A stretch of 38,128 nucleotides of DNA from Anabaena sp. UHCC 0187 (GTDB lineage Bacteria; Cyanobacteriota; Cyanobacteriia; Cyanobacteriales; Nostocaceae). The position numbers and the translations under genes were made by a program. This document shows positions 2,169 through 20,381 of the stretch, in pieces. Each line of letters opens with the position of its first letter. The stretch's first letter is position 1. A model generated the notes under the pieces. It made no database searches and was not told where the DNA came from. It saw nothing but the letters and a program-made list of their open reading frames with translations. The stretch lies in assembly GCF_009712035.1 (NCBI RefSeq), contig NZ_VILB01000026.1, forward strand, positions 1 through 38,128. The letters are read 5' to 3'.

Positions 2169-5057
2169 CTAATTCACTAAATCTATATCAGTCTTAACAT
2201 CATTATTTAGTCCTAATTCAGCCAGTGCAACTTTAGTTTCCTCAATCTTTTGGGTAGCTATTTCTCCCTCTACTAAAACCTCCACTTTTAATGTTAATTT
2301 CAAATCCTTGATGGTTGCAAATTTAGATAAAACTTTCGTGTAAAAATTCATCCATTTTTGCGGTGTAATTACACCACTCCACTTTAATAATTTTGGTAAT
2401 GCAACTGGGGTTATAATCTCAGGTTCATCTTTTTTTGGTTCTGGTTCATCTTGTAATTTTTTCGTATTACTATCATAGGGTGCAGGTTTCTCTCCCACAG
2501 TATTTGGAATCGGTATAGAACCACTTTTATTATTATCTGGGTTGTCAGTAGTAGTTTCCCCAGTTTCTGGTGGTACTGATGGCTTTTCAGGAACACAAAC
2601 ACTTGCAGCTAAAGCTGTTTGGTAAGCTTCTGCTGTTTCTTTAGTAATGATAAACATATCCTCAGAAATTTCTACATCTCTGACAGAAAGATCACATTGA
2701 AAATAGAAAGGTTGATAGCCATTATTACTTTTACCAACATAAGCTAAAGTTCCATCTTTGACACCGCGAGATATAGCATCTTTGACAGCATCACTATTCA
2801 ACAGTCTGGGAAACAGTGGTGAAGCAAAAAAGGCATCGAAGACAGATTTGCTACTCCACTCTGTAAATGCTGGCGGCCAATTTCGCACCAAAAAACGAGG
2901 AATGATAGTTTCGACAACATCATCACTTTGGCGTAAACGATTAATAATTAAACCTACTAGTGTAGTAGATTGACTAGAGTTTACTTGTCCAAAATCAATC
3001 ACACGAATTTTGTTATCTTTTCCTAATAAAGCCACAGATTTATAAGCATTCCACACACTTTCTTTTAAGTTAGATAAAGATTTTTTCAAATTTTCCTCTA
3101 ACTGACGTTTTTGATGATCATCTAATCCTTGTTCTTCATCACGGATGTCTTCCCAAGCTAAAACTTTTCTGGCTTCTTCTCGTAGCTTGGTATCAGTATC
3201 AGCAACCGCCCAAATTATGGCACTTTTAAATGTTCTGTCTGATGTACCACATTCTTTAGTCATAGACTCAATTATTTTTAGAGTCTGACTATCTTGTAGA
3301 GAATGTTCTGGTGCTAATATAGCTAAAGTTAAAACAGGACGATTAGAAATCGTACTAGAAACTTCTGGAAAATAAGTTAATTGAATTCCTGGATGAGAAG
3401 TAAAAACTTTTTGAATTTCGGCTTTTACTCTGTCAATAATTCTTGATGATTGGACATTAGCACGACGGTCTGCTAAAATCTTATTTAAGTTAGGTGACAG
3501 ACTAAAGCAATATTTATTTTTTTCAATTGATAAATAATAACAATTAGTTGCCAATGTCTCTAAAACAGTTTCTACATTGCCAATATCTAAAGATGGTTCT
3601 GCTACTGCTAAACGAATTTCTGGGATAGTAGATTCTGCCCGCAAAATGCCACCATTAGATTCAAAAAATATTGTTGTTGTGACTTTGCGGTGGAGTCGTG
3701 CTTTTTTAATTTGGTCATCCGCTTCCGCATCCAAACGGACTGCATGGGAATCTTTTTTACCACAAATATCAGTTGTAACAGCACCTTCTAATCGGTTTTC
3801 TCCTAATTGTTCAAAGACTGCGGCACGAAATTGGAGATTATCTAGGGGTGCAGTTCCTAAAGTAATTAAAGGGTCACGGTGTGCGCCTTGATATCCTTGT
3901 TGGTAGGCGTTAGATACCCACAATGCGAGGAGTCGTAATACTCCCCTGGTGCGTTGAAAGCGGGGTAAAACTTGCCATTTGCGCTCAAATACTGATAACA
4001 CTGAGGGGTGGAAAGGATAGGTAGCATAAAAGGCTTCACGGGGGTTATCCAGAGGAAACCAACTAGGTAGTTGTTGACGATGATCTAGTACCCAGTCAGC
4101 GTATTCATTGCAAGTGGCGATCGCATCTTTTGGTAACATAATCCTACCATCCGCACTCACAGCCCCAGCATCCCATTCAAATAGTCTTCTTCTAATAATT
4201 TCTGAAGTTTCCGCTTCTGCTGACATCATGATAGGTTTACCCACCCTATCCAGCATTTTTTTAAACCGTTGTTCATCCCCTTCATCGGCTGAAGTGTATT
4301 CCAATTCTGAAGCGGGAACGGAAACTACTAACACCACATTATCTAAACCTCTAGCAGTTTCTGATAATGCTTGAATGAAATTGTATAAACTGTTGTGATA
4401 ACCCTTGCCACGATAGGAACTAACATAATTAATAATTTCATCCATTAATATCAAACAGGGTTTATCTTTGGGCAGAAATTGTTTAATTACATCGCCTTTA
4501 GGTTCAATAAATTCTGCTTCATGTTGTGCCAATACAGCTAGTGCAGTTTCACCACCTAATTGATAGGCAATTTCTCCCCAAGGTGTTTTCCGTAATGATG
4601 TACCATCATTTCCTCCCCGTCCTGTAAGAGAATCAAATTCAGTGCCTACAAACACGGCTACTGCTGCTTCTGGAACTGAAGAAATACCAGCTTTTTGTAA
4701 TATCTTTTGTACACCAGTCCAATTATTAGCAATAGATCCACCTTTAGCTAAATGGTAAAGTAAAGTGAGCGCGTGGGTTTTACCACCACCAAACTGAGTA
4801 GCCAGGTTAAATACAGCAGAAGTTTCTGTTTTTTCTCCAGACAGACGACGGATAACCTGGGCGGAAAATTCAGTTAAATATTTAGTAAGATAAGTACGGT
4901 CAAAAAATTGTTCTGGATTTTGGTAGTAAGCAGGTGCAGTTTTATCTCGTACTTTGTCAAGATGCACAGCAAATTCCGAAGCATCTAAAGGTTTACCTTC
5001 CCGTAAGTCTTCGCGGGGTGTTAGTCCATCAATTTTGTACCAAGGTTTAATTGCCAT
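2169..5057 (-). CDS. DUF499-family AAA+ ATPase (COG1483-like), operon gene 6
   Basis: 962 residues, last gene of the helicase/methylase operon. The N-terminus (MAIKPWYKIDGLTPREDLREGK) is the characteristic DUF499 start. A P-loop-like FGGGKTH lies at residues 89-95, a Walker B LILMDEI at 202-208, and a VVLVVSVPASE sensor-like strand near 245. After the ATPase core come a long helical region, a Pro/Glu/Lys-rich linker near residues 835-885 and a small C-terminal domain. DUF499 proteins are known from their repeated pairing with DUF1156 methyltransferases in predicted defence loci. Their biochemical job is not established to my knowledge; an ATP-driven remodeller of the methylase/helicase complex is an inference. 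The start ATG at 5057 is 10 bases after the stop of the 194-residue gene. An intact, full-length frame argues that the operon is functional. Confidence 0.88.
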   Translation of the reverse strand: MAIKPWYKIDGLTPREDLREGKPLDASEFAVHLDKVRDKTAPAYYQNPEQFFDRTYLTKYLTEFSAQVIRRLSGEKTETSAVFNLATQFGGGKTHALTLLYHLAKGGSIANNWTGVQKILQKAGISSVPEAAVAVFVGTEFDSLTGRGGNDGTSLRKTPWGEIAYQLGGETALAVLAQHEAEFIEPKGDVIKQFLPKDKPCLILMDEIINYVSSYRGKGYHNSLYNFIQALSETARGLDNVVLVVSVPASELEYTSADEGDEQRFKKMLDRVGKPIMMSAEAETSEIIRRRLFEWDAGAVSADGRIMLPKDAIATCNEYADWVLDHRQQLPSWFPLDNPREAFYATYPFHPSVLSVFERKWQVLPRFQRTRGVLRLLALWVSNAYQQGYQGAHRDPLITLGTAPLDNLQFRAAVFEQLGENRLEGAVTTDICGKKDSHAVRLDAEADDQIKKARLHRKVTTTIFFESNGGILRAESTIPEIRLAVAEPSLDIGNVETVLETLATNCYYLSIEKNKYCFSLSPNLNKILADRRANVQSSRIIDRVKAEIQKVFTSHPGIQLTYFPEVSSTISNRPVLTLAILAPEHSLQDSQTLKIIESMTKECGTSDRTFKSAIIWAVADTDTKLREEARKVLAWEDIRDEEQGLDDHQKRQLEENLKKSLSNLKESVWNAYKSVALLGKDNKIRVIDFGQVNSSQSTTLVGLIINRLRQSDDVVETIIPRFLVRNWPPAFTEWSSKSVFDAFFASPLFPRLLNSDAVKDAISRGVKDGTLAYVGKSNNGYQPFYFQCDLSVRDVEISEDMFIITKETAEAYQTALAASVCVPEKPSVPPETGETTTDNPDNNKSGSIPIPNTVGEKPAPYDSNTKKLQDEPEPKKDEPEIITPVALPKLLKWSGVITPQKWMNFYTKVLSKFATIKDLKLTLKVEVLVEGEIATQKIEETKVALAELGLNNDVKTDIDLVN

Positions 5058-5067
5058 AATTTACCTG

Positions 5068-5652
5068 CTAGAGTATGCTAAATTTTCCGGTATTTGTTTC
5101 CAACTGCCACCATTTAAAAAAGCCGTAGGGAAAGGTAGCAGAATCACCTCGACTACCTACTACTACAATGGTTTCACCGTCGAGTTTCATCCTGTCTGGT
5201 AAACTTATCGCTTGCAGCACTTCATCCCGGAGAAAAGTGATCAGGGAAGCGCGTTCCTCCGCACTGCGACGGTAGCAAAAGACTATTCTTAAATCTGCAC
5301 GCACGCATAGCACTTTCCAAAGCGAGTAGGCACTGCGGTTAATATCGCTACTGTTCTCTAATTCCATGACGGCAATAGGAAACCGCCAGCTTGTATTACC
5401 AGAAGCAAAAGACATGACATCTAAAGCTAAGTATTCACTGGGAGATACGGGAAACAAGCCTAGTGGATGTCCTTTGGCGGAAGAATGCCAACCCATTGCT
5501 GTAGAAGTGGAGACAACGGTAGTCGTTAAAGCGGTTGTCCATTTACCAAGTTGTCCTTTTAAGGCTGCTTGTTTTAACGGGTCAGCATTTTCAGGTTGTT
5601 GTAGGGTTTGCCAGAATTTAGCTTGCCACTGGGAGGCGATATTTTGCATCAT
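5068..5652 (-). CDS. Small conserved-looking protein in the operon; possible nuclease-like fold
   Basis: 194 residues, overlapping the methyltransferase stop by four bases (ATGA), so probably translationally coupled. No family is recognised with confidence. The central part reads as alternating strand and helix: EYLALDVMSF (73-82), FPIAVMELENS (91-101), AYSLWKVL (108-115), RADLRIVFCYR (118-128), ETIVVVGSRGD (160-170). A strand carrying Asp78, a following strand with E97-x-E99-N and a helix with Lys113 recall the D...ExE/K core of the PD-(D/E)XK superfamily, where ExE variants exist. This is a pattern-level suggestion only. The C-terminal FPYGFFKWWQLE is aromatic-rich. Being locked between the methyltransferase and the DUF499 ATPase suggests it is a working subunit of the system. 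Confidence 0.7.
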   Translation of the reverse strand: MMQNIASQWQAKFWQTLQQPENADPLKQAALKGQLGKWTTALTTTVVSTSTAMGWHSSAKGHPLGLFPVSPSEYLALDVMSFASGNTSWRFPIAVMELENSSDINRSAYSLWKVLCVRADLRIVFCYRRSAEERASLITFLRDEVLQAISLPDRMKLDGETIVVVGSRGDSATFPYGFFKWWQLETNTGKFSIL

Positions 5653-8600
5653 GAGAACCCCAACCCCTTTTTCCGTGCTAATACCCCATCTACCCAGCGT
5701 TTTTCATCTGTACCGGTGGGGTATAATGCGGATAATGCCTGAGCGAGTCCCCAAAAGCGTTGGTCGTTTCCTGCCCCTTCATCTACTAAAAAGCGTTTTA
5801 GGGCTTCGCTGCGTCCGGCTGCAAATAAAATCATGCTTTGGTGAATGCGGTCTAATGTAGTATTCCCTAATTGCGGGACTGTTTTTTCACCCCAGTCTGT
5901 ATCTTCTTCTGTCTCGGTGATACCTAGCACTGCGAATAAATTGAGTTGTTCAGGTTCTTTCTTTTTGCCTTTTTTACCTTTGGTTTTGCTGGGGGTTTGG
6001 GCTTCTTCTTTACCAAATAAATATTGGGTACGTTCTGATACTGCTAAAAGTTTGGCGGTGCTGCCTTTGACCTCTACTAAGCGGGTAAGTTGTTCTAAAT
6101 GTGCGCCTAGTCCTTGGGCTATTTTCCGGGCTGCATCAAATTCTAGGACGTAACCGCCGGTTTTGCTGGTTTTGCTGCTGGTTTCTTCGTCGTCTTCGTC
6201 GTCGGTTTCTGATTCGCTGTTATTGTTGTCGGCGCTACCTGTGGAAAGTGTCCACAACCACATGGCAGTGAGGCGGGCATCTTCTTCAAAGCTGGTAGTA
6301 TCGGCATTGGAAAAAATCATACTCAATGCTTCTTTGGAGACTGCTGCCCAAACGTATTCTAGGTATTCTTTGAGGGTGACAATTTCACCGGAGGCTTTTT
6401 CGACGCTGGAGTAGCGGGAGAATATTTCTAAAGCCGGTCCCAAGCAAGCAAAGATGGCATCTGCACCAACTACGCCTTCTGATGCTAGTCTGGGCATCCA
6501 TTCGTGGATACGTTGGGGGAGTTCTTGGAGTACGTCGCGCCAGTCGCCGATGTCGTTAGAGTTACGGGGACGGCAGACTATGTGGACGGATGAGGCGAGG
6601 GCTGCTGAATCCATTGCACGTAGTCTATTACCTCTTTCTGTATCAATAGGCCATGAACCTGTCATAGTCCAGCCAGCGTTTACCATTGCTTGTAGTTGTG
6701 CCTCCCAGCCTGATGTTGATTTATGGGCAAAGACAATGACAGCTATACCTTCATGTGCTAAAAATCGGCATCCTTCCGCCATTGATTTTTGCATTGTCAT
6801 TTCAAAATAGGCTTTATCTTTGCCTTTAACTTCATCAACAATGCACTCATCATTTTTGGGTGTAAGTTCATCTGTGAAAAAAGTACCAAGAGATAAGGGT
6901 AAAGTTCGTTTTAGCCAAACATAGAAAAAGTCGGATAAGTCGGCATAAGGTACAGCATCATAATAAGGAGGGTCAGAAAATAGACATTGTACAAAATCAT
7001 CTGGTAACGGGTTACTAGCGGCGTTTGCTTTTTCTGTTTGTCCTATGCTTATGTGATTATCATTAATATTAAAATTACTTTGACATACACCTAAAACCCA
7101 TTCTAAAGCACCATCTAAACTTCCGGTTGCACCAGAAAAAGAGTTTCCTTCTGCAAAATCCCAAAGCATTGGTATTGCTTGCCTAGCAAAAAGGCCATCC
7201 ATTTGTTCTCTTGCACTGTTCCATTTTGATAAAGATGTTAATGTATTGGCTTGTCTATCAATTACTAAACTTAAACAAGTTTGCACAGCATCAGCCAAAC
7301 CTTTATCTTTACTATCTGCTAACTTTTCTCCCACATCTTTAACTAATTTCACCAAAGTAGTTAAAGCTAAATTTTGACGATGGGTAAATAAATCCTGAAA
7401 CTTATCCATCCCATAATTTCGTTGAGAAAATGCCCTACCTGCGCCACTTCCCCCACCTTTAGGCGTAGGTTCATCAGGAATTAAACTCAATTCTCCAGTA
7501 TGTTGATTAACTCTTTTTTCTAACTCAATACTTGCTTTTTTAACTGCTTCTAAATCCCGTTCATTTGGTAAACGATAAAATCTTCCTTGAGTTTTTACTT
7601 TAGTAGTCACCACACAAAATAATCTAGCATCATTAGCCCCACCTTGACGGGCTTTAAATTGTGTTCTTACCGAAGCCACAGGAGTAGTATAACCACAACA
7701 GGGACAAGTGGCAGATCCTCTTTTTACAGTGCCATCAAAACTAGGATTTTTTACTTCAATTTCTGGGTTATCACTAACTATCCATTTACTCTTTTGTTTT
7801 TCTATAATTTCAAAATCTACCCGCTTATCTTCCGGTTTAGGAATTATCCTTAAACCAATATTGCGATTACTTTTTTTACACAAATACAAAGACCGCATTA
7901 ACGGCACTTCTGCCCCACATCCCGGACCCTCACAAATAATAGTCCTCGCCCATAAATAAGCAATTGCTGTACTTCCATCTGGGTCTTTTGGATAAAATTC
8001 AGCTAACTCTTTTTCTGCTTCTTCCTTTACCCACTGTCCCCATTTTCGTACCTCATCCGCTAAAGTTTGTCCGTACTTGGGAATATATTCCAACACCACC
8101 TTATTTAACAACACTGCTACCGGATTAATATCAGAAGCAAAAGCATCAGCACCCACTCGCAACGCTTCCAATGGAATAGAACCACCACCAGCAAAAGGGT
8201 CAACTACTAAGGGTTTTGTTCCTGGTATTCCGCCTAATGCTTCATGGGCTGCTTGAGTTAAATTCCGACTGGTTTCTAAATAATCAGTTTGTGTAGAATT
8301 ATCCCAATTTGCAAAATCAGCAATAAAATCTAGTAGACTATTTCTTAATATATTGCAATGTTGAATATTATTACCATCTAATTGATTTTCTGGTTTAGCT
8401 AAAACCTGCCATTTACTCCAAATTTCTGTAGAACAATGTTTAGATAAATCACTATTTATAGCTGTGGTTTTTTTCGCAAAATTATTAATATATTTAGCAG
8501 CCAAATCACGAAAAGACTGGGGGCAATTTTCATCAACAGGGTCAGGCCATAAAGCCGCACATATTACAGCCCGACAAGCGGCTAAAGGTCGTCTAGCCCA

Positions 8601-8717
8601 CCAAATATGTAATGTAGAAATATGCCCATGTCTGATTGATTTCTCCCGTCGTGCGTGGGCAGAAATGCGTTTAATGGGTAGGTCAACTTCGATTAGGCGT
8701 TTAGGATAAGTGATCAT
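5649..8717 (-). CDS. DUF1156 adenine-specific DNA methyltransferase with zinc ribbon (COG1743-like)
   Basis: 1022 residues from the ATG at 8717. That start gives the family-typical beginning MITYPKRLIEVDLPIKRIS and leaves a 10-base gap after the NYN gene; the longer frame back to 8816 would overlap it. The N-terminal DUF1156 segment includes the hallmark HARREKSIRHGHISTLHIWW, followed by ARRPLAACRA. The AdoMet motif DPFAGGGS is at residues 173-180 and the catalytic DPPY at 582-585, typical of amino-methyltransferases acting on adenine N6. Between them sit Cys pairs (CEGPGC near 262-267, CPCC near 338-341) that match the zinc ribbon described for COG1743. A Lys-rich segment lies in the C-terminal quarter. 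It would mark host DNA or act as the target-recognition part of the helicase/ATPase system. Restriction-like use is inferred from context. Confidence 0.93.
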   Translation of the reverse strand: MITYPKRLIEVDLPIKRISAHARREKSIRHGHISTLHIWWARRPLAACRAVICAALWPDPVDENCPQSFRDLAAKYINNFAKKTTAINSDLSKHCSTEIWSKWQVLAKPENQLDGNNIQHCNILRNSLLDFIADFANWDNSTQTDYLETSRNLTQAAHEALGGIPGTKPLVVDPFAGGGSIPLEALRVGADAFASDINPVAVLLNKVVLEYIPKYGQTLADEVRKWGQWVKEEAEKELAEFYPKDPDGSTAIAYLWARTIICEGPGCGAEVPLMRSLYLCKKSNRNIGLRIIPKPEDKRVDFEIIEKQKSKWIVSDNPEIEVKNPSFDGTVKRGSATCPCCGYTTPVASVRTQFKARQGGANDARLFCVVTTKVKTQGRFYRLPNERDLEAVKKASIELEKRVNQHTGELSLIPDEPTPKGGGSGAGRAFSQRNYGMDKFQDLFTHRQNLALTTLVKLVKDVGEKLADSKDKGLADAVQTCLSLVIDRQANTLTSLSKWNSAREQMDGLFARQAIPMLWDFAEGNSFSGATGSLDGALEWVLGVCQSNFNINDNHISIGQTEKANAASNPLPDDFVQCLFSDPPYYDAVPYADLSDFFYVWLKRTLPLSLGTFFTDELTPKNDECIVDEVKGKDKAYFEMTMQKSMAEGCRFLAHEGIAVIVFAHKSTSGWEAQLQAMVNAGWTMTGSWPIDTERGNRLRAMDSAALASSVHIVCRPRNSNDIGDWRDVLQELPQRIHEWMPRLASEGVVGADAIFACLGPALEIFSRYSSVEKASGEIVTLKEYLEYVWAAVSKEALSMIFSNADTTSFEEDARLTAMWLWTLSTGSADNNNSESETDDEDDEETSSKTSKTGGYVLEFDAARKIAQGLGAHLEQLTRLVEVKGSTAKLLAVSERTQYLFGKEEAQTPSKTKGKKGKKKEPEQLNLFAVLGITETEEDTDWGEKTVPQLGNTTLDRIHQSMILFAAGRSEALKRFLVDEGAGNDQRFWGLAQALSALYPTGTDEKRWVDGVLARKKGLGFS

Positions 8718-8727
8718 GAATATATTT

Positions 8728-9372
8728 TTATAGTGGTTGAACAATGCGATTAGGGATAGTGAAATATATCTTTTTCCCCATTTCATCTTTTTCGTAATAC
8801 TCACCACCTCGAACAAACGTAGTAGATAAGTAATGGTAATCGAGTATGTTTATTTTCATACGCCCATTTGATGCTGCCTGAATAGTTTCGTAGCGGCGAC
8901 GACTTAAAGTTTGTTCCCAAGACCATACTTCTACTTCCCAACCTGCTTTTAGCGCACGTTCTATCTGAATTGGAAAACCTGTATCAAAATCTGAAGTTTT
9001 TCCGTCTCCAGTTACAACAACCAAGGTTTGAGATTCTAAACCATAGAAATCAATGATTGCATTGGCTATTTTAAGATGAAGAACTTCATCTACAGCTTGT
9101 TCTGTCATTCTGCCATCATCACTTTCAACCCGTTTTAGTAAATCTGTGTTGTACTTTCGATCACGGGCATACTGCCATAATTCCTCACAAGATGGTGGCA
9201 CTGAACCTGCCAATATAGCTGTTTTTAGGTCACGCCCATTCTCAATAAGATCAAATAAATTACGGTAGTAAAGACGAAGTGCCATCCAAGGAACATCAGG
9301 TTCAACTAAACTTCTGACGGATTGTGCGCCTCCCCAAATATTGGAATTATCAAAAAAAACATGAATTGACAT
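8728..9372 (-). CDS. NYN-domain (PIN-like, LabA/DUF88-type) nuclease candidate
   Basis: 214 residues. The N-terminal strand MSIHVFFDNSNIW carries the first acidic residue (D8) in the D-x-S-N context typical of NYN domains. AVDEVLHLKIANAI (residues 93-106) gives the second acidic site (D95), TLVVVTGDGKTSDFDTG (116-132) the third (D123, with D128 nearby), and GWEVEVWSWEQTLS (144-157) matches the final strand of the fold. These are the residues that coordinate metal in NYN/PIN ribonucleases. It lies three bases after the helicase stop and ten bases before the methyltransferase start, so it is an integral operon member. An RNA- or DNA-cleaving effector is plausible but unproven. I do not know NYN proteins as a standard component of published helicase-methylase-ATPase systems. 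Confidence 0.86.
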   Translation of the reverse strand: MSIHVFFDNSNIWGGAQSVRSLVEPDVPWMALRLYYRNLFDLIENGRDLKTAILAGSVPPSCEELWQYARDRKYNTDLLKRVESDDGRMTEQAVDEVLHLKIANAIIDFYGLESQTLVVVTGDGKTSDFDTGFPIQIERALKAGWEVEVWSWEQTLSRRRYETIQAASNGRMKINILDYHYLSTTFVRGGEYYEKDEMGKKIYFTIPNRIVQPL

Positions 9373-9375
9373 ACG

Positions 9376-12300
9376 TTATTTTGCCTTTGTGTCTAAAATT
9401 TTATTTGCCCCAACGTGATAATGCTCAATCTTAATTAACGCTTCCCAACCCAAGCGTACAGGGTCTTGAATAGTGTGAACCTCTGGAGATAAAGCACAAT
9501 TAAATACTACATATAACCAGTAATCCCTCTTCAATCTTTCCGCCGTTTTATATTCATTTGTCGTTAACGCTACCTCACCAACATTTGCCCTTCCTTTAAC
9601 TTCAATAAATCTGACAGCACTAGCTTTTAACGGATCTCCAGAATCAATTTGACGCGATATCAAATCAAACCCGCGATTCTCCTTCTCCACACTCACAACT
9701 TGCCATCCTCTAGCCTCCTCATAATCTATAACTGCCTGAATTGCTATTTTTTCAATTTCATCATTAGATACCATTGGCGCAATTTCTGGAGAACTTCTTT
9801 CAGGATGTGGTAATACCCAAGCACGTCCATAATGATGAATGTCGGTAATTGCACAACTCGCTTCTTGCTGCAATTCTTCCCGTCGTTGTTCTAACCTCCC
9901 ATTTAATTCAAATAATCGGTCTTCCAGTTGTTTAATGCGACCATCTAAACCCTGTTCTTTAGAACCAGATTCTTTCAGTTGCAACAACTCTATAAACTGA
10001 ATCTGTACCTTATCAATAATCACATTCAAACTAATTTCTATATGGTTAGAAATTGTTTCTACTTCCTTTTGTCGCTGTGTCCGAATTTCTGTTAAAAAGC
10101 TATTTAATTCCTGTTCAATTAAGGCTTGTTCTACCTGTTCTCGACTGGGTAAATTAGTATCATCTGGTAAATAATTAACTAAATTCCCATTGTCCCCAGC
10201 TTCCCCCTGCCTATCGGCAGACAGGGTAGATGTATGATTCTGAACAGTGGACTCTATACTCTTAGCAGGGAGTAAATCTAAAAATAAAGTTGGTTGGCGG
10301 ACAGTCATTGTTCCATCTAACTCTGTCTGCACTACATATAAACGTTCATGGAGTTTTCTACCCCGTCCATCAGTAATAGCAGATGAAAATATATCTAATC
10401 TAGCTGGTGATTTCCTATGCAAATCAAAGAATATCGCACCCCGACACAAATCTTCCTGTACCTGTGCAGAAACTTCATCCCGCACACATTCAAATAAGGG
10501 ATGTCCTGGCGTTACCCATTCCAACGTCGGATCATCCGTCAAGATATTTTTATCAAACGTAATCTTTTTATACTCTCGTCCCAACTTACCAAAGCGATTT
10601 TCTAACCTATCTCCCGTTCCCCATAGAGTCCGAGGAACACGCCCAATTCTATATATTTTCTTACCCTTAGCTGTTTCCTTTGGATGAATCCCCGCTATAT
10701 GTGCTGCTTGCACAAAGAAATCATGGATAACTTCAGGTACTAATCTCCGTTCCTTAGCTTCAGCAGATTTACCAATAATTTGTGATAAATTTAATTCCCG
10801 TTTAGCAAGTCCTTCTAAAGCCGAATCACTAATTTTACGAAAACGTTCTGTATCTACCTGTTCCACAATCCGATTGAGAATTACAGACTCAGTAAGGTTA
10901 TGAGCATACATATCCCGCATCATCCGTTCTAACTGATTAGCAGGGAAAATATCACCCAGTACATTAAATACTTTACCCGTCCTCTCTGGATCTAAATCCA
11001 TCTCAATAGCGCGAATCCTCTCAAACAGTTTCCATAACACCTTACCTTCGCTGGTGTTAATAGCTACAAAGTTAAAAATTAGACAATCCTTATCCTGTCC
11101 ATAGCGGTGAATCCTACCCATGCGCTGCTCTAACCGCACGGGATTCCAGGGAATGTCATAATTAATCATGAACCAGCAGAATTGTAAATTAATACCTTCA
11201 CCTGCTGCTTCTGTAGCTACTAAAACTTGACAATCTTCTCTAAATTCCCGTTCTGAATAAATCCGAGTATTGGGGGTATCTCTATCACCTATTTTCATTC
11301 CTCCATGAATTTGGGTAACAGTTAATCCCCATTCTCTTAATTTCCCAACCAAATAATCTAAGGTATCTTTATGCTCACTAAAGATGAGCATTTTCATCTT
11401 CGGATCTGCAAATATTCCCTCTTGAATAATTACTTCTTTCAGCTTGACTAATTTAGATTCAATTTCTCTCTTTTCTAATATCAGTGCTTGACTAATTAAT
11501 TCATTTAATTGCAAGATTTCTCTTTTCAAAGCAATCGGATCAACAGAAGCAACCACACCTTCTAAATCACCTATAATCTTTTGTTGTTCTATTTCAGTTA
11601 ATTCATCAAAATCTTCTGGTAGCTTCTTATTAATTTGCTCTTGACGATAGCTTTCTGGATCTTCTAAAATCCTCTGACGTTTATCGCGCATCCGTTCTAA
11701 ACTCCGGCGGACAGCGTAAATACTAGAAGCAAAGCGACGTTGTAACATCGCCATTGTAAAACCTAAAGCTCTACCTCTGGCTGTATCATCACTGGAGGCT
11801 TTAATTGATTGGTCTTCCACATAATCAGTCAGTGCATTATAAAATTCCAATTCTTCCGCATCAATTTGAAATTCAATAGTTTCAACTTTGCGATTAGTGA
11901 ATAATTTTTTCACAATTCCTGTTTCTTCAGGGAACGTAACAAGAGCTTCTTTAGTCCGACGCAGATAAAAAGGAGCATTATTCCGTTTCATTGCTTCTTC
12001 TAAACTGCTGACATCACCATAAACATCTTTATCTAATAATTCTAAAAATAAACAAAAGTTTTTTGGGTCGCCTTTATGGGGCGTAGCTGTCATTAATAAA
12101 TAGTGGTCGGTAATTTTAGAAAGTTCTTCACCGAGTTTATAAGCTAACGTTTTATTATCAGAACTGTAAGCACTCATTTTATGTGCTTCGTCTACAATAA
12201 TTAAATCCCAATTACTTCTTAATAAACTATCTTTTGCGTCTTCAATGCGAGAAACCCAAGACACGGAAGTGATAACTTGATTTTTTTCTTGCCAGGGATT

Positions 12301-12870
12301 AGAACCATAATTAGCGCGAAGGACATCTCCACGTACCACTTCAAATTCTTCTCGAAATTTGTCTTTGAGTTCTCGTTGCCATTGAAATGTTAGGTTAGCA
12401 GGGGTAATAATCAGGATGCGTTTAACTAATCCTCTAATTTTTAGTTCTTTAATTAATAATCCTGCCATGATGGTTTTCCCAGCACCAGGATCATCAGCAA
12501 GTAAAAACCGAATGCGAGGCTGTTTTAAAAAATACTCATAAACTGCTTCTAATTGATGGGGTAGGGGGTCTACTCGTGCGATCGCCAATGCGAAATAAGG
12601 ATCATATTCATAAGCTAACCCCAACCGCAAAGCTTCTACACCGAACCGAAAATACTGGGCGTTACCGTCAAAGGGTTCTTTTTCAGGTGAGGATTCTAAC
12701 TTTTCCAACTGTTGAGCATTGAGAATTGGTTGATAAGTATGATTGGTATTAATTCCAGTCCCAATGAGTTTTATCGAATCACCCATTGGTACAACTACCA
12801 ATACCTGTACAGGTTCGGGAAAGATTGAACCACGAACAATTACATTTGCTTTCAGTTGGTCTAGTTTCAA
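9376..12870 (-). CDS. SNF2-family helicase/translocase with C-terminal DUF3883-like domain
   Basis: 1164 residues starting at TTG (12870). An in-frame TAA lies just upstream and no ATG fits, so TTG with a GGTGA-like site is the likely start. Helicase motifs are intact: Walker A DDPGAGKT (126-133), DEAH (227-230), TATPHKG (261-267), ATEAAGEGINLQ (552-563) and QRMGRIHRYGQ (582-592). The SF2 core resembles RapA/DrmD-type SNF2 proteins. A long coiled-coil-like stretch (about 935-1020) precedes a C-terminal region with FDLISR and RFIEVKGR followed by LTTNEYKTAERLKRDYWLYVV, matching DUF3883, a domain with a PD-(D/E)XK-like look often found in restriction proteins. It follows the XRE gene by 53 bases and leads the effector genes. 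Likely role: ATP-driven DNA translocation or sensing in a defence complex. Confidence 0.92.
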   Translation of the reverse strand: MKLDQLKANVIVRGSIFPEPVQVLVVVPMGDSIKLIGTGINTNHTYQPILNAQQLEKLESSPEKEPFDGNAQYFRFGVEALRLGLAYEYDPYFALAIARVDPLPHQLEAVYEYFLKQPRIRFLLADDPGAGKTIMAGLLIKELKIRGLVKRILIITPANLTFQWQRELKDKFREEFEVVRGDVLRANYGSNPWQEKNQVITSVSWVSRIEDAKDSLLRSNWDLIIVDEAHKMSAYSSDNKTLAYKLGEELSKITDHYLLMTATPHKGDPKNFCLFLELLDKDVYGDVSSLEEAMKRNNAPFYLRRTKEALVTFPEETGIVKKLFTNRKVETIEFQIDAEELEFYNALTDYVEDQSIKASSDDTARGRALGFTMAMLQRRFASSIYAVRRSLERMRDKRQRILEDPESYRQEQINKKLPEDFDELTEIEQQKIIGDLEGVVASVDPIALKREILQLNELISQALILEKREIESKLVKLKEVIIQEGIFADPKMKMLIFSEHKDTLDYLVGKLREWGLTVTQIHGGMKIGDRDTPNTRIYSEREFREDCQVLVATEAAGEGINLQFCWFMINYDIPWNPVRLEQRMGRIHRYGQDKDCLIFNFVAINTSEGKVLWKLFERIRAIEMDLDPERTGKVFNVLGDIFPANQLERMMRDMYAHNLTESVILNRIVEQVDTERFRKISDSALEGLAKRELNLSQIIGKSAEAKERRLVPEVIHDFFVQAAHIAGIHPKETAKGKKIYRIGRVPRTLWGTGDRLENRFGKLGREYKKITFDKNILTDDPTLEWVTPGHPLFECVRDEVSAQVQEDLCRGAIFFDLHRKSPARLDIFSSAITDGRGRKLHERLYVVQTELDGTMTVRQPTLFLDLLPAKSIESTVQNHTSTLSADRQGEAGDNGNLVNYLPDDTNLPSREQVEQALIEQELNSFLTEIRTQRQKEVETISNHIEISLNVIIDKVQIQFIELLQLKESGSKEQGLDGRIKQLEDRLFELNGRLEQRREELQQEASCAITDIHHYGRAWVLPHPERSSPEIAPMVSNDEIEKIAIQAVIDYEEARGWQVVSVEKENRGFDLISRQIDSGDPLKASAVRFIEVKGRANVGEVALTTNEYKTAERLKRDYWLYVVFNCALSPEVHTIQDPVRLGWEALIKIEHYHVGANKILDTKAK
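10205..10226. repeat. Small hairpin sequence inside the helicase coding region
   Basis: Nested inverted repeats CTGCC-TATC-GGCAG (10207-10220) and CCCTG...CAGGG (outer arms 10205-10209 and 10222-10226) sit in frame within the helicase gene and encode a polar linker (LSADRQGEAGD) before the coiled-coil part. Such REP-like hairpins are usually intergenic in these genomes, so an in-frame insertion into a tolerant linker is likely. The length is short, so chance cannot be excluded. Confidence 0.4.
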
Positions 12871-12923
12871 ACTGTCACCATCACTTTAGAATATGCCTCT
12901 CTAACTCATTTAATTGCCGAATA

Positions 12924-13214
12924 CTAGGGAATAGAGAAATATTTTGCCAATAACTCTTGACCCTGTTCCCCCACTTCCCCAAGCTTCTGCCCAATAAGCT
13001 GCATGGCAATTGGTGAGGGCTGCGATCGCTCATTTTCCCAACGGTTAATAGTGCCATAGGTAACACCTAGATAAGCGCCAAACTGTTCTTGAGTAAGTCC
13101 AGTCAACAGGCGAAAATCCCGAATTAGCCCCCCAATTTCGGTTTTTTTGACCAGCAATGGTCTTTTTAACATCTGGTTCATGCCTGATGTAACGAGTAAT
13201 ATGTCTTTTGACAT
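12924..13214 (-). CDS. XRE-family (Cro/CI-type) helix-turn-helix regulator, operon gene 1
   Basis: 96 residues from the ATG at 13214; an ATG at 13181 (MNQMLKRP...) with TCAGG in front is an equally reasonable start. The HTH is clear: IGGLIRDFRLLTGLTQEQFG, then AYLGVTYGTINRWENERSQP, which is the Cro/CI recognition-helix pattern, followed by PSPIAMQLIGQKL. There is no ligand or enzymatic domain. It lies 53 bases upstream of the helicase in the same direction and presumably controls the whole operon, as small HTH regulators do in other defence operons. A palindrome ATGTC-TTTT-GACAT at 13201-13214 would be its own operator, particularly if translation begins at 13181. Its 5' part and upstream region exist as a decayed second copy at about 15345-15595. 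A HIP1 site lies within the gene. Confidence 0.9.
   Translation of the reverse strand: MSKDILLVTSGMNQMLKRPLLVKKTEIGGLIRDFRLLTGLTQEQFGAYLGVTYGTINRWENERSQPSPIAMQLIGQKLGEVGEQGQELLAKYFSIP
13201..13214. promoter_or_regulatory. Candidate operator palindrome of the XRE regulator
   Basis: Perfect inverted repeat ATGTC-TTTT-GACAT. It overlaps the upstream candidate start codon of the XRE gene and is 20-33 bases upstream of the alternative start at 13181. The same 14 bases are unchanged in the decayed copy at 15449-15462, even though the coding part there has frameshifts. Autoregulation is inferred. Confidence 0.5.
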
Positions 13215-15773: not shown

Positions 15774-16739
15774 TTAAACCAAATCTTCCAATAAAGCTGT
15801 AATTTTCCCCTGGGCTTTAGTGCGGTTGTCATCATAAATCATTAAAGTATTTAGATTGGCATGACGACTCAACTTCTGCACACTTCTAACATCCCCACCA
15901 CTAGCATCCAACGCCGCAGTTACCGACGAGTGCCTAATTTTATGGGGGCTAACAGTTTTGGAAATCCCCGCCACACTAGCAATCTTGACCACAATCTTGC
16001 GAATTCCATCCCCCGTCAGCCGATGTCCGTAGTGAGGTCGCAGGGAAATAAACAACGGTTCCTTGATATCTAATTCCTTCCTCTCCCACAACCAATCTTG
16101 CAGAGCCTTGCAAGTTTTGGGATGCAAATCAACATTTTCCTTCTGCGTCCCCTTACCCTTACCCAAGATACTCAAAGTCCGTAATTCTAAATCCAAATCC
16201 TCAATATTACAGTGAGAAATTTCCTCCCGGCGCAGCGCATTAGCCCATAACAGTCGCAGCAGGGCATAATCCCGTTTTCCTTTAATTGTTTCCTGGTTTG
16301 GCACTAATAGCATTTTTCTAAAAGCTTCAGGAGTAATACCAGACGTATCTCGGTAAGGTTGAATTTTCTCACTCTTAATATCAGTTAAAGTCCAGTCACA
16401 CTTACCCACCTTATAAGCGTAGTTAACTAACGCCTTAATTGCAGCCAAGCGGCGGTTAACAGTTGCTTCCTTCAAACCCTGGTCAACTAACTCCGCCTTG
16501 TACCGCAAAACCAAAGTCACAGCCGAGTACCTATCCATTTGTAGAAACTGCCCCACCAAAAGAGGTGTTGGTTCCTGACCGCACACAGACAGGAAAAATT
16601 TATTTAAATCTTTAGCATATTCATGACGGGTATTTTTATTGCGCTTGCCCACCAACAATTCTGCCAACAAATCGCGTTCAGCGGTAATGGCAAAGGGATT
16701 GACCTGGGCGAGTGAATTTAACTCTGGGGGGGGCTGCAT
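15774..16739 (-). CDS. Tyrosine recombinase / XerC-like integrase
   Basis: 321 residues. The N-terminal SAM-like core-binding domain (about 20-115: KNTRHEYAKDLNKFFLSVCG) is followed by the catalytic domain with the complete signature: R170 (ANALRREEISHCNIEDLDL), a Lys in the ILGKGKGTQK hairpin (about 193-197), H266-K-I-R269-H (SPHKIRHSS), H293 (LSRHANLNTLMIY) and the nucleophile Y302. The size and layout match single-domain Xer-type recombinases that resolve or integrate plasmids and other elements, rather than large phage integrases with arm-binding domains. A dif-like inverted repeat with a 6-bp spacer lies directly in front of the start codon (16745-16768) and could be its own recombination or regulatory site. 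It borders the region of transposon relics. Confidence 0.92.
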   Translation of the reverse strand: MQPPPELNSLAQVNPFAITAERDLLAELLVGKRNKNTRHEYAKDLNKFFLSVCGQEPTPLLVGQFLQMDRYSAVTLVLRYKAELVDQGLKEATVNRRLAAIKALVNYAYKVGKCDWTLTDIKSEKIQPYRDTSGITPEAFRKMLLVPNQETIKGKRDYALLRLLWANALRREEISHCNIEDLDLELRTLSILGKGKGTQKENVDLHPKTCKALQDWLWERKELDIKEPLFISLRPHYGHRLTGDGIRKIVVKIASVAGISKTVSPHKIRHSSVTAALDASGGDVRSVQKLSRHANLNTLMIYDDNRTKAQGKITALLEDLV

Positions 16740-16744
16740 ACAAC

Positions 16745-16768
16745 TATCGAAAACATCTCTTTTCGATA
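16745..16768. promoter_or_regulatory. dif-like inverted repeat before the recombinase gene
   Basis: TATCGAAAA at 16745-16753 and TTTTCGATA at 16760-16768 are perfect 9-bp arms around a 6-bp spacer (CATCTC). The nearest arm is five bases from the start codon (16737-16739). A 6-bp centre between inverted arms is the architecture of XerC/XerD dif and of other tyrosine-recombinase core sites. It could instead be an operator or an mRNA hairpin affecting translation. The remainder of 16769-16938 shows no gene or clear signal. Confidence 0.55.
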
Positions 16769-16991
16769 ATTACTTTAGCATTGATCTACCCCACCTGACC
16801 AAAATTCCAGTACCGAACCAGCCCCCAGTGAAAAATTACTGCTGCTTAACACTAATCTTGAGGTGGAATGGTACGCTGCTTTGTGGAAAATCGTTGAGGT
16901 AGCAAGCAAGGGTGCTTCCACTCTTGATGACAAAATACTGTCGGTTCGCGGACTAATTGAAAAATTTTGAACGGATTTATAGGGGTTCTAG

Positions 16992-17126
16992 TGTCGGTTC
17001 GCACATAAGATGAAATTTAAACAACGAAGTTATAGGGGTTTGGGGCATCGAGATTCGCGCATAAAATGAAATCGGTTGTGAGGCAAGGGTTTGAGCCAAA
17101 TAGTCAATTCGCAGATAAAGTGAATT
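16992..17126 (+). repeat. Left cluster of the 19-bp repeat (inner three copies)
   Basis: Copies at 16998, 17054 and 17108 each read TTCGC-x-x-ATAA-x-x-TGAA. The copy at 16998 also repeats the terminal TGTCGG (16992-16997) seen at the outermost end. A TTATAGGGGTT segment follows the first two units (16977-16987 and 17030-17040), so a unit of roughly 53-60 bp has been multiplied. Confidence 0.85.
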
Positions 17127-17325
17127 TTTCTGCTTTGATTTAACAACAGCCTGAATGCTTTTAAAAACGTACTTTTCAAGTGCGATCACCCGGTCTATGA
17201 AATTGCTAATACACTCTAGATAAGAAGGTAGCCAAGTAGCTTTTGTACGTAAAATTTAGGTTATTAGGTATAAAGCACTATCACTATTACAAGAAATACT
17301 GTGAATTTCTTTGATCAGATGCAAA

Positions 17326-17477
17326 ATTTCAATTTATGTGCGAAGTCGCTAGGAGGCTCAAACGCTTACTCCATAATCAATTTCACCTTATGCGCATAAT
17401 CAATTTCACCTTATGCGCGAATTAGAGGGGCTGAAAACCCTGTAAATTCGTTCTCAGAATTTCACTTTATGCGCGAA
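17326..17477 (-). repeat. Right cluster of the 19-bp repeat (inverted)
   Basis: Four copies in reverse orientation end at 17344, 17398, 17421 and 17477. The two middle copies are nearly identical to each other (AATCAATTTCACCTTATGCGC) and only 23 bp apart, suggesting a recent small tandem duplication. The outermost copy continues into the CCGACA terminus. Confidence 0.85.
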
Positions 17478-17512
17478 CCGACAATTCGTAAGGGAAAATT
17501 TAGCTTACAATT

Positions 17513-17530
17513 GATATCACACCTGATATC
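17513..17530. promoter_or_regulatory. Operator-like palindrome at the start of the 185-residue gene
   Basis: GATATCA-CACC-TGATATC is a perfect 7-bp inverted repeat with a 4-bp centre, ending three bases before the ATG at 17534. A repressor bound here would block translation initiation or transcription of the gene. The gene's own product, which has HTH-like segments, is a candidate ligand. Confidence 0.5.
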
Positions 17531-17533
17531 GCC

Positions 17534-18091
17534 ATGACTAACAAGACCCCACCCAGCGAAATGATTCGCGTGCCAACTGTACTAATCCCAATAGTACGTA
17601 ACTTAGCGAAAATCCACCGTGATGGTCATACAACTGATTTACTGCAAGCATTACAGCTATTGATAGCACAGTTTGATAGCAGTGCAAAACTGGCAGCAAC
17701 CACCGAATTACAGCAGGTGGAAGAGAAACTAGAATCACTGAAAACGCACCTTTGCCAACAAGATGAACAAGTGGACTCTAAACTGGAAATCCTTGGTAAA
17801 CAGTTGGAGAAAATTGAACGGGCGCTGGCCTCTGGTAAATACGGTGGTGGTAACTCTAAACCCCGGCGTTCAGGATATCCATATCAGTATCAACAACAAC
17901 CAGTAGAAATCACATCTTTTGCACCGCAAAATTTAGCGCAGAGGTTGGGGGTGACACAGCAGAGTTTAACTACAGAATGGGAAACCAAAACTGAGCAGGA
18001 ATTTATTCGTTGGTCCAGGAATCGTGACCCCAGTAGTTTGGGGTGGAAATTTCAGCCTCAAGATGGATTGTATTATCCAGTTAAACAATAA
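17534..18091 (+). CDS. Unknown protein with possible DNA-binding ends and central coiled coil
   Basis: 185 residues, no confident family. Residues 9-40 (EMIRVPTVLIPIVRNLAKIH, then RDGHTTDLLQALQLLIAQF) have a short strand plus two helices, the order seen in ribbon-helix-helix proteins. Residues about 55-95 (QQVEEKLESLKTHLCQQDEQ and following) are a heptad-rich coiled coil. The C-terminal third has APQNLAQRLGVTQQSLTTEW, which looks like a helix-turn-helix, then FIRWSRNRDPSSLGWKF. The ATG at 17534 is next to a palindrome at 17513-17530, and the gene starts 51 bases beyond the 545-bp repeat element. It might be a regulator or maintenance protein for an accessory element; this is inference. Confidence 0.65.
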   Translation: MTNKTPPSEMIRVPTVLIPIVRNLAKIHRDGHTTDLLQALQLLIAQFDSSAKLAATTELQQVEEKLESLKTHLCQQDEQVDSKLEILGKQLEKIERALASGKYGGGNSKPRRSGYPYQYQQQPVEITSFAPQNLAQRLGVTQQSLTTEWETKTEQEFIRWSRNRDPSSLGWKFQPQDGLYYPVKQ

Positions 18092-18100
18092 TAATTAGGG

Positions 18101-18115
18101 GCGTTGCAAAAACGC
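18101..18115. terminator. Weak hairpin between convergent genes
   Basis: GCGTT-GCAAA-AACGC lies ten bases after the stop of the 185-residue gene, followed by a short T-rich stretch and then the 3' end of the convergent nucleotidyltransferase gene. The stem is only five pairs, so termination is uncertain. Confidence 0.3.
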
Positions 18116-18125
18116 GATTTGATAA

Positions 18126-18800
18126 TTATTGAGATATGCTGTTAATTAGTGACAAAAGTAATTGCTCACGACCAGCATTTTTTGATGCAGATGAAAGATG
18201 TCCAGGTGCAATTTCTATCAGGTCTTCAAGTTCACTTTTGAACCATGTTTTTATAAATTTTTTTACTTTTATATCTGCCTGTTGTATTTCTGCTTCTAAA
18301 TCAGGACATCCATCTAGCAATAAAATAATATCTTCTAAATCATGGCTATACATGAAGTTGCGATTTCCTCGACTATTGAACGCCTCAATCTTTGATGCTA
18401 AAAGATAAGTTACTGGGAAAATATTTATTTTTTGACCACTTGGAAGATTATAAATAATTGATTTTTTAATCCCTGGTTTGTACCAAGGGTTGCTAAAACC
18501 AAGAATAGAAGTGTCAGCAGGCATTATATCTATTATTAAGTCCTGATAACGCCAACGACATATAATTTTACCTTGATCCTGTTCAAGTCCAATTTGGCGA
18601 AGCTGTTCTTCAAGAAGATAATATTTAGTGCGGGGAATGATATTTATAACGCAATCTACATCGTTTGTAGGACGGGCATCAACAGCAGAAACTTCATCAA
18701 GATAAAGAGATATTGTTGCACCACCTATAAAAACTATTTTTTTATTTAAGGCGGCAAGTAACTTTGCCGCCTTTTCCAACATTTGTACTTGTTCATTCAT
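18126..18800 (-). CDS. Nucleotidyltransferase-fold protein (AbiEii/MenT-like toxin candidate)
   Basis: 224 residues. The N-terminal region has the Pol-beta nucleotidyltransferase pattern: IVFIGGATISLYL (residues 22-34, the GG-x-x-S helix start), RPTNDVDCVI (43-52, with catalytic D47 and D49) and LIIDIMP with a third acidic residue at D91. The remainder (VTYLLASKIEAFNSRG, HDLEDIILLLDG) matches the substrate-binding part of AbiEii-like proteins, where the K-x-x-A-x-x-x-R segment is typical. The start overlaps the upstream winged-helix gene by four bases (ATGA), so the two are translated together. The pair resembles a type IV toxin-antitoxin (AbiE-like) operon, although this protein is shorter than classic AbiEii (about 300 residues). 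Confidence 0.75.
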   Translation of the reverse strand: MNEQVQMLEKAAKLLAALNKKIVFIGGATISLYLDEVSAVDARPTNDVDCVINIIPRTKYYLLEEQLRQIGLEQDQGKIICRWRYQDLIIDIMPADTSILGFSNPWYKPGIKKSIIYNLPSGQKINIFPVTYLLASKIEAFNSRGNRNFMYSHDLEDIILLLDGCPDLEAEIQQADIKVKKFIKTWFKSELEDLIEIAPGHLSSASKNAGREQLLLSLINSISQ

Positions 18801-19306
18801 GATATTGTCAGTCTTTTTTCAAGCTCAATACTTGCCAGATTTTGTTCCCGCACACGACCAACTCGAATCGCATCAATCAAACTTAGCAACTCATATAATT
18901 CTGGGTCATTTTTAATGGCGGCTGGAACGGAGCGATATAACGGAGTAATACTTTGTCCTCTCACAGTTCCTTGTGGATCACTCCATACATAAATATCAGC
19001 AGAATTACCTTGGAGTAAATTTTTTAAAGGTTCAGCAGAATGTGCGGTAGGAATTCCTCTAGTCAAAGCACCTGGTTTTTCAGGAAATACGTATTTAAGC
19101 CCATGAATCAGAAATTCAAGCAAGCAATGTTTTTTTACTTTTCTAGAAGACCAATCATACAAACCACTAGTCTCACATCTTTTTAGAGCTGCATGAACTT
19201 CAGAAGGGCTGATGTGTAAGCTGTTGGCAAGTTCATTGTAAGTCCAGTCCAAATCTCGTAAGTTATGCACTTTTATTACAACAACAACATCTTGCGGTTT
19301 TAACAT
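18797..19306 (-). CDS. Winged-helix DNA-binding protein, partner of the nucleotidyltransferase
   Basis: 169 residues from the ATG at 19306. An upstream in-frame GTG at 19318 touches the AGGAG sequence and cannot use it, so the ATG, 11 bases after AGGAG, is preferred. Residues about 21-50 (WTYNELANSLHISPSEVHAA, then LKRCETSGLY) form a clear helix-turn-helix of MarR/winged type. The C-terminal half (PGALTRGIPTAHSAEPLKNL, YVWSDPQGTVRGQSITPLYR) is unfamiliar but looks like a conserved folded domain. As first gene of the pair it probably represses the operon and may serve as antitoxin; both are inferred from layout. Heptamer repeats at 19358-19378 lie in its promoter region. Confidence 0.75.
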   Translation of the reverse strand: MLKPQDVVVVIKVHNLRDLDWTYNELANSLHISPSEVHAALKRCETSGLYDWSSRKVKKHCLLEFLIHGLKYVFPEKPGALTRGIPTAHSAEPLKNLLQGNSADIYVWSDPQGTVRGQSITPLYRSVPAAIKNDPELYELLSLIDAIRVGRVREQNLASIELEKRLTIS

Positions 19307-19378
19307 CGCAAATATCACTCCTATTTGTGAACAGCGAATCTAGCTTTATTCTATATTCGCAAATCGCAAATAGCAAAT
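19307..19378. promoter_or_regulatory. Heptamer repeats upstream of the toxin-antitoxin-like pair
   Basis: CGCAAAT occurs at 19307-19313, 19358-19364 and 19365-19371, followed at once by AGCAAAT at 19372-19378. Three tandem heptamers plus one next to the start codon are suitable spacing for a winged-helix regulator that autoregulates, but no binding is known. Confidence 0.4.
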
Positions 19379-19494
19379 CTATTTTCTTGTAACGCACCGT
19401 AAAAGCCAATACCCTTTGGGGTTTTGGGCATTCGTAAGGACACACGGTATCTGGAAAACTCAGCGGCTTGGTTCCCTGAGAAGGAAGCGACATT

Positions 19495-19527
19495 ATGGCT
19501 AACGGCACGCTGTCGGCAAGCCTAAGG
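19495..19527. repeat. Dispersed hairpin repeat overlapping a gene end
   Basis: GGCTAACGGCACGCTG followed by TCGGCAAGCC resembles the repeat at 35841-35869 (GGCTTACGCCACGCT...TCGGCAAG). Sequences of this type are scattered through Nostocales genomes (established in general; copy number here not counted). It forms the last codons of the antitoxin-like gene at 19499-19714. Confidence 0.5.
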
Positions 19528-19714
19528 GGTCTTGATTTTGAAATACAGGAAACTCAGGTAAATCATTAACTATATTTACCAATAATTGAGATGATTGTTT
19601 TTGTCGTTCTACTAACAACATTTTTTTGATAGTTTCTTGGACAACCATTTCCATATTGGGCAACTCTAAAAGTTGTTTTCCTAACTCATCAGGTAACTCG
19701 ATCACAACTTGCAT
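19499..19714 (-). CDS. Orphan antitoxin-like protein with altered C-terminus
   Basis: 71 residues from the ATG at 19714, which has AGGAG nine bases upstream; the longer frame to 19780 lacks such a site. MQVVIELPDELGKQLLELPN, then MEMVVQETIKKMLLVERQKQ resembles small cyanobacterial antitoxin-type proteins. In relatives known to me the end reads LPEIPxFxGxDPLGLQ followed by an acidic helix. Here LPEFPVFQNQDPLGL is followed by PTACR and a stop encoded by a dispersed repeat. The last helix has therefore probably been replaced by a repeat insertion. No toxin gene is adjacent, so it is likely a remnant or a free-standing regulator. Confidence 0.6.
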   Translation of the reverse strand: MQVVIELPDELGKQLLELPNMEMVVQETIKKMLLVERQKQSSQLLVNIVNDLPEFPVFQNQDPLGLPTACR

Positions 19715-19780
19715 AAATTTTATTCTCCTAACATGGTGGCTCAATTCCCAATTCATCACAGAATAAACTGATTTTAACAT

Positions 19781-20108
19781 CAGTTACTTTGCTTAAAATA
19801 ACCCCGACTTCTTTGACCACTGATGTCCCCAACTACAACTAACGACACATTGAGCAATTATTCGCCTTAACAATCTTTCCATGTAATATACCGTCAATTC
19901 AACATTTTTACCGCGTATTACATGGAGAAAATTAGTTTTCTACTTTGGTTGCATTTTGAAGCATAAAATTAACCCCTACGTTGTGAAGCATATCTTGACC
20001 AAAAAGCTCATTTTATGATTCAAGTCATAATGATGCAGCCCAATCCCTAGATAAATATTGCCAATACTCACGACATCAAAATATCAATATATCGCAAAGA
20101 AGACATTG
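19781..20108. other. Gene-free stretch with one long inverted repeat
   Basis: No plausible gene is seen. The notable item is an 11-bp perfect inverted repeat, TCCATGTAATA at 19878-19888 and TATTACATGGA at 19916-19926, with a 27-base loop. It could be the ends of a tiny element or a transcribed stem-loop. Confidence 0.6.
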
Positions 20109-20381
20109 CTAAAATTTGGAAATATCAAACAAGCTCAACTGCCCCACCGATATATTACCCTTGCTGCCCCGATGGTAATTAAGATGACAACGAGGACATA
20201 AAGCAACTAAATTTTCAGGTCTGTTGTCGGAGGGGTCCCTGTTCCAATGATGTACTTGTAAATAAGTACGGCGTTGGGGTTTTTCATCGGGACGTAAAAC
20301 CTGACCGCATTTTTGACAGCACCAATCAGATTTTTCCTTGATGGTTTTGGCTAGTTCTTTCCAATGCTTAGGGTAGTCCAT
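20109..20381 (-). CDS. HNH endonuclease
   Basis: 90 residues. A Cys4 zinc site brackets the HNH core: CCQKCG (residues 21-26) and CPRCH (about 62-66). VHHWNRDPSDNRPENLVALC carries the catalytic His pair (HH), the central Asn and the following zinc Cys, and HLNYHRG supplies the final His. All active-site residues are present. The length is typical of stand-alone HNH proteins found in mobile elements and near restriction genes. Its target is unknown. It is isolated, with large gaps on both sides. Confidence 0.9.
   Translation of the reverse strand: MDYPKHWKELAKTIKEKSDWCCQKCGQVLRPDEKPQRRTYLQVHHWNRDPSDNRPENLVALCPRCHLNYHRGSKGNISVGQLSLFDISKF

Follow-up and report, generated by a model that had tools for sequence, protein, structure and literature searches.

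The 38,128 nucleotides (nt) of Anabaena sp. UHCC 0187 analyzed here (contig NZ_VILB01000026.1, called the window below) contain an operon of six genes, three of which code for the helicase, methylase and ATPase of the Hma defence system. We consider it likely that this Hma operon carries its accessory genes in two exchange slots, and that a 194-residue protein, p194, is an optional dedicated subunit of one HmaB clade and a NYN-fold protein a swappable RNase. Comparison of related loci gives clear evidence that the two junctions between the core genes act as exchange slots for accessory genes. The core itself is already known. What is new here is a variant of Hma with one recurrent unclassified component and with cassette exchange. 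As the preliminary description of this DNA had stated, the six genes are intact and co-directional, with gaps of 53, 3 and 10 bases, a 4-base overlap and a gap of 10 bases. They are read on the minus strand from 13214 to 2169. The features are:

12924-13214, minus strand: XRE-type helix-turn-helix gene (Pfam HTH_3, E 5e-11), co-directional with HmaA and upstream of it
9376-12870, minus strand: HmaA, SNF2 helicase of 1164 amino acids with a C-terminal NOV_C/DUF3883 PD-(D/E)XK nuclease domain (PADLOC and Pfam)
8709-9392: slot 1, the HmaA-HmaB junction, the segment without a blastn match to the operon of G048, a genome of the same genus
8728-9372, minus strand: putative RNase with a NYN fold, cargo of slot 1
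5649-8717, minus strand: HmaB, DUF1156 DNA-adenine methylase of 1022 amino acids, with a DPPY motif at residues 582-585 (PADLOC and Pfam)
5063-5655: slot 2, the HmaB-HmaC junction, the segment without a blastn match to the G048 operon
5068-5652, minus strand: p194, the recurrent protein of slot 2, 194 residues, with a restriction-endonuclease-like predicted fold
2169-5057, minus strand: HmaC, DUF499 AAA+ ATPase of 962 amino acids (PADLOC and Pfam)

Exchange slots between the core genes

An HmaB alignment was used to scan GTDB genomes. It found 243 relatives, and the 80 most similar to the query were retained. They are 55-88% identical in the best segment, and their hosts include cyanobacteria, planctomycetes, Chloroflexi, Verrucomicrobia, Acidobacteria, Proteobacteria, methanogens and others. 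Together with 14 earlier loci they form a set of 94, which was searched with hidden Markov models (HMM). Two loci are present twice (L009 = L074, L041 = L077), which leaves 92 distinct ones. The contigs of L047 and L051 possibly belong to a single operon, and in some loci the DNA upstream of HmaA cannot be seen.

The limits of the slots are seen when the window is compared with G048 by blastn. HmaA is 97.2% identical at the nucleotide level until 17 nt before its stop codon, and then no match is found across the NYN gene. The start of HmaB matches again (98.1%), as does its end (97.1%), the match is lost once more across p194, and it restarts 5 nt before the start of HmaC (92.8%). The slots of G048 contain other small genes, which by eye resemble RelE-type and PIN-type toxin-antitoxin pairs. 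From these break points we infer that slot contents are swapped by recombination within the flanking core genes. The HmaB copy of G048 (locus L049) is probably broken, since about 1.9 kb of internal sequence present in the window is missing from it.

G153, also of this genus, has an HmaA which is 90% identical; its slot 1 contains a gene from a cluster that includes annotated Uma2 proteins, as well as a 390 amino acid frame, and its slot 2 has other small genes. In Chlorogloea sp. CCALA 695, one of two sister operons (L087 and L107) has p194 and the other a 60-base junction. Two sister Hma loci are also found in the single genome of Anabaenopsis elenkinii (L069 and L071).

Most visible junctions in the 80 scan loci are wide. 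A gap of at least 400 bases is present in 50 of 67 A-B junctions and in 58 of 71 B-C junctions, while the gap is below 150 bases in 15 and 11 of them, respectively. Of 146 cargo frames with at least 150 amino acids, counting p194, 137 have the direction of the operon. Nine run against it, three of them opposite p194. The Pfam matches of the 86 frames in slot 1 include AAA_21 and AAA_15 with 10 each, HD with 8, AlbA_2 (Schlafen) with 6, DarT with 4 and Uma2 with 3, among the 25 of 55 families listed. In slot 2, leaving p194 aside (69 frames), AAA_21 has 7 matches, PIN and UPF0175 have 3 each, and single matches correspond to YhcG, DarT, HEPN, TIR and other families, among the 25 of 54 families listed.

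Twelve cargo families are present in at least four loci. The largest is p194, which is found in slot 2 in 25 of 25 loci. Seven of the other 11 occupy both slots, and four of them, with 4-6 members each, stay in one. When HmaB of two loci reaches 80% identity and both loci have the slot filled, a cargo family is shared by 1 of 7 pairs for slot 1 and by 8 of 12 pairs for slot 2; two of the seven slot-1 pairs involve L096, which has a 232-base junction without a 70 amino acid frame. We have not found this slot exchange described in the open-access literature searched, which includes Rakesh & Krishnan 2026 (PMC12839542).

If the operon does work as a two-slot rack, one defence system could be given new weapons while its own recognition machinery stays as it is. 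An extra component that recurs and whose active site can be put to the test, together with natural pairs of near-identical cores which carry different slot genes, makes the role of "backup" effectors in restriction-like systems directly testable, by comparing and swapping cassettes.

The p194 family

The preliminary description had placed a 194-residue gene inside the operon, and this gene recurs more than was claimed. It is found by HMM in 29 of the 94 loci (28 of the 92 distinct ones), and it lies between methylase and ATPase in every locus where these two can be seen; in L105 the contig ends before HmaC. For the scan loci the figures are 25 of 80, or 24 of 71 if only loci in which the HmaB-HmaC junction is visible are counted. 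A search of 386 cyanobacterial genomes gave p194 in three, all within Hma operons. Among 237 genomes of the class of a Methanothrix genome it is present in 15, and the nine new copies all adjoin HmaB, HmaC or both. In the 25 genomes with scan copies (one of them in two pieces), a whole-genome search gave one p194 each, at the operon, and none elsewhere. The sole plasmid record with p194 has adjoining Hma genes, and in both viral contigs with p194 a DUF499 gene adjoins. On the other hand, p194 was not found at E 10 in 13 Hma loci with a more distant HmaB. The family is tied to Hma: in the sequences covered it has so far been seen solely inside such operons, in bacteria and archaea.

In L082, L145, L177, L180, L182 and L183 the gene is split, interrupted or truncated, as expected if it is dispensable. 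Its presence has no phylogenetic signal on the HmaB tree, a quick, weakly resolved tree in which 24 of 85 inner branches are open: 24 changes are needed over 78 tips of known state, 28 of them with p194, compared with 23.0 ± 1.9 for shuffled labels, and 792 of 1000 shuffles are at or below the observed value. Since the presence of p194 does not cluster on this tree, simple vertical inheritance is disfavoured, within the limits of the tree and of 80 loci chosen for their similarity to the query. p194 distances track those of HmaC (r 0.79) and of HmaB (r 0.62) in 24 loci, and 0 of 999 permutations are as high. Some cyanobacteria share 87-92% identity in p194 and only 62-76% in HmaB, as expected for local exchange. 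The GC content at third codon positions is 0.415 in p194 and 0.23-0.29 in the core genes.

Profile searches of the six proteins, as proposed earlier, identified the three core proteins, but neither p194 nor the NYN protein has any match in Pfam, PADLOC, NCBIfam or PHROGs, and at E 10 the sequence of p194 matches none of the solved structures. Its predicted fold is restriction-endonuclease-like, with only low Z values when the model is compared with active nucleases; NucC, OkrAI and BamHI are 9-16% identical to it. The 25 bacterial and archaeal sequences all share E73, D78, E97, E99, N100 and K113. These residues include a D78...E97-x-E99 arrangement, with E where the ExK motif has K. The active site of BamHI uses ExE in place of ExK. 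Judging from the modelled fold and its residues, p194 is probably a restriction-endonuclease-fold protein. Its activity would be that of a DNase which needs metal ions, of the BamHI-like E..D..ExE type, and HmaB and HmaC would be its partners. Its strict place and its partners make a second DNase working with these two proteins probable.

A wider proposal combines all these features: p194 would be an optional fourth Hma subunit ("HmaD"), a BamHI-like nuclease restricted to these operons from cyanobacteria to methanogenic archaea, and the operon would be a two-slot cassette rack whose effectors are swapped by recombination between core genes. In this complete form we suggest it tentatively, as a substantial possibility. 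p194 might also be a catalytically dead restriction-fold protein which binds DNA or protein as a specificity or assembly subunit. This would agree with the missing ExK lysine, with the low Z values and with the strict placement between HmaB and HmaC. However, six residues invariant in all 25 sequences would be unusual for a dead enzyme, and the ExE of BamHI shows the same substitution; we consider a dead enzyme unlikely, but worth keeping in mind. We have not found the p194 family described in the open-access literature, although the supplementary tables of PMC12839542 may list p194 as a generic restriction endonuclease.

The NYN and XRE genes

The model of the NYN protein has a predicted NYN/PIN-like fold. 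Residues D8, D95 and D123, which we take to be the catalytic acidic residues, are invariant in two alignments of three sequences each. Comparison with the sequences of solved structures only gave two matches, with E 0.54 and 0.88, which we attribute to chance. Among the 94 Hma loci the gene is found in the window only, and among the 386 cyanobacterial genomes only in the one to which the window belongs. It is also present in 2 of 321 genomes of the class of a Tepidimonas genome. Relatives are found in Burkholderia and Hymenobacter plasmids and in Pseudomonas phage records, none among the viral contigs searched. Two plasmid regions around such relatives were viewed, and they contain no Hma genes. 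On these counts we rejected NYN as a conserved component. Of the gene order described earlier, p194 between methylase and ATPase is kept in the loci that carry p194, while NYN between helicase and methylase is seen in the window only.

The putative NYN nuclease is probably a swappable backup RNase, the present tenant of slot 1. A similar logic is known for PrrC, an RNase toxin encoded beside a type I restriction-modification system. PrrC is controlled by a restriction-modification protein together with a phage anti-restriction peptide, and regulation of this kind is proposed here for NYN by analogy. NYN has a different fold from PrrC, which is an anticodon nuclease.

A homologue of the XRE gene is present in one other locus of the 94 (L065). 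Its DNA (12937-13214 in the window, 6001-6278 in L187) is found 92% identical beside an Hsp70-family gene in the Anabaena sp. 90 plasmid pANA01. For this reason the regulator appears to move between operons as well, it is probably a separate exchangeable regulator which is not tied to the Hma core. The idea that it is the operon's own regulator is weakened by this near-identical DNA.

The extra genes could be simple passengers, co-directional insertions tolerated between core genes in defence islands and plasmids, with NYN and p194 lacking any functional link to Hma. The rapid turnover of slot 1, where 1 of 7 pairs shares a cargo family, would be explained in this way, as would the single NYN gene among the 94 loci and its relatives on plasmids and in phage records, with no Hma genes in the two plasmid regions viewed. 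But 137 of the 146 larger cargo frames follow the operon strand, many of the listed Pfam cargo families are defence or toxin families, and p194 keeps both to slot 2 and to Hma. As an explanation of the whole operon this seems improbable; it probably fits NYN better than p194.

The preliminary description had also suggested a conserved system of five or six genes. A single fixed system in which XRE, NYN and p194 are all obligatory would agree with the short gaps and the single direction, but it is contradicted by the locus survey (NYN in 1, an XRE homologue in 2 including the window, and p194 in 29 of the 94 loci) and can hardly be correct.

The Hma core, known systems and the rest of the contig

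The operon is an Hma or Type-1 BREX-Related (Type-1 BR) system, since its three large genes match the HmaA, HmaB and HmaC profiles of PADLOC and the corresponding Pfam families. The helicase-methylase-ATPase core had been assigned to Hma from the outset, correctly. The PADLOC values are E 3.9e-190 for HmaA (residues 1-1123 of 1164), 1.3e-128 for HmaB and 4e-120 for HmaC (residues 1-856 of 962). In Pfam the helicase has SNF2, Helicase_C and NOV_C domains (NOV_C E 3e-20), the methylase matches DUF1156 (E 2.2e-22) and the ATPase DUF499 (E 2e-17). Residues D582-Y585 of HmaB are invariant across 8 sequences. The nuclease motif of HmaA (D1069, E1090-V-K1092) is invariant in 65 of 65 aligned HmaA frames longer than 3.2 kb, so the extra genes would supplement the effector and not replace it. 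The genome to which the window belongs has a second, partial HmaB-like frame (G000:C43:7209-7973, minus strand), with 35% identity in a 435 amino acid open frame.

Hma systems are widespread, with 1,638 instances in 26 phyla (Payne et al. 2021, PMC8565338). Those systems also consist of helicase, methylase and ATPase, and their profiles match here over most of the length. They are described as three-gene operons, whereas here NYN lies between HmaA and HmaB and p194 between HmaB and HmaC. HmaB is given in that paper as an m5C methylase; here, its DPPY motif fits N6-adenine. Rakesh & Krishnan place the class as Type-1 BREX-Related, DUF499-centred and restriction-modification-like, with the helicase-nuclease as effector, and report, citing Liu et al., that the HmaA nuclease domain confers defence. 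The system which they describe is similar to ours: DUF499 ATPase, DUF1156 N6-methylase, SNF2 helicase with an active C-terminal restriction endonuclease domain, and embedded nucleases. An N-terminal TUDOR domain in the helicase and a C-terminal RRM domain in the ATPase are among the features they name. Auxiliary or backup nucleases embedded in many Type-1 BR loci are described there as a class, thus the earlier suggestion that the extra genes are additional effectors of an undescribed variant is only partly new. The p194 family and the slot behaviour are new as far as we have searched. The term NYN has 0 occurrences in the main text of PMC12839542, and the sections covered mention neither a slot-2-specific 194 amino acid family nor junction exchange.

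Earlier work noted this core with different partners, which are toxin-like or reader genes in its neighbourhood. The COG1743-DUF499-SWI2/SNF2 operons of Bell et al. 2020 (PMC7641849) are given with EVE and PIN-GNAT-EVE, and the HEPN-DUF499 operons of the 2013 HEPN survey (PMC3710099) with HEPN, not with p194 or NYN. Type-2 BR (DUF3780) and the PLD-DUF1156-DUF499 antiphage models also have a small fixed extra protein within the operon. Nevertheless, the Type-2 BR hallmarks (a DUF3780 gene, an HKD nuclease or HKD-helicase fusion) have no Pfam match among the six proteins, and the NCBIfam antiphage models for DUF499 (127 of 1200 bits) and DUF1156 (209 of 1000) are far under the cut-off. We rejected Type-3 BR and BREX, since PglZ had no match in the six proteins of the operon or in 12 further proteins of the window that were scanned. 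DISARM was also rejected: DrmD has 447 bits compared with 632 for HmaA in PADLOC, and 374 bits in NCBIfam, where 610 are required.

Judging from the families and from published work, HmaB would methylate self DNA, HmaC, a BrxC-like AAA+ ATPase, would act as a sensor and assemble or license the complex on unmodified DNA, and the HmaA helicase-nuclease would unwind and cut or degrade this DNA. p194 would probably join HmaB and HmaC as a second DNase, an optional dedicated subunit in one HmaB clade. NYN would probably be the backup RNase which acts when restriction fails or is inhibited, and recombination in the flanking core genes would replace the genes of both slots.

The contig is probably plasmid-like, with its own clamp system. 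Genes for a DNA polymerase III beta clamp (497 amino acids), a clamp-loader protein of the gamma/tau type (505) and a delta subunit (331) are clustered at 22608-27492 on the plus strand. The beta clamp is 95% identical to a Dolichospermum flos-aquae plasmid copy, and 71-93% identical to other plasmid copies in Nostocales. The region 15774-33385 contains further mobile or defence genes, which code for a phage-type integrase, an AbiEii-type toxin, a PIF1/AAA_30 helicase, an NB-ARC STAND protein and a DEAD helicase with an MrfA Zn-binding (MZB) domain.

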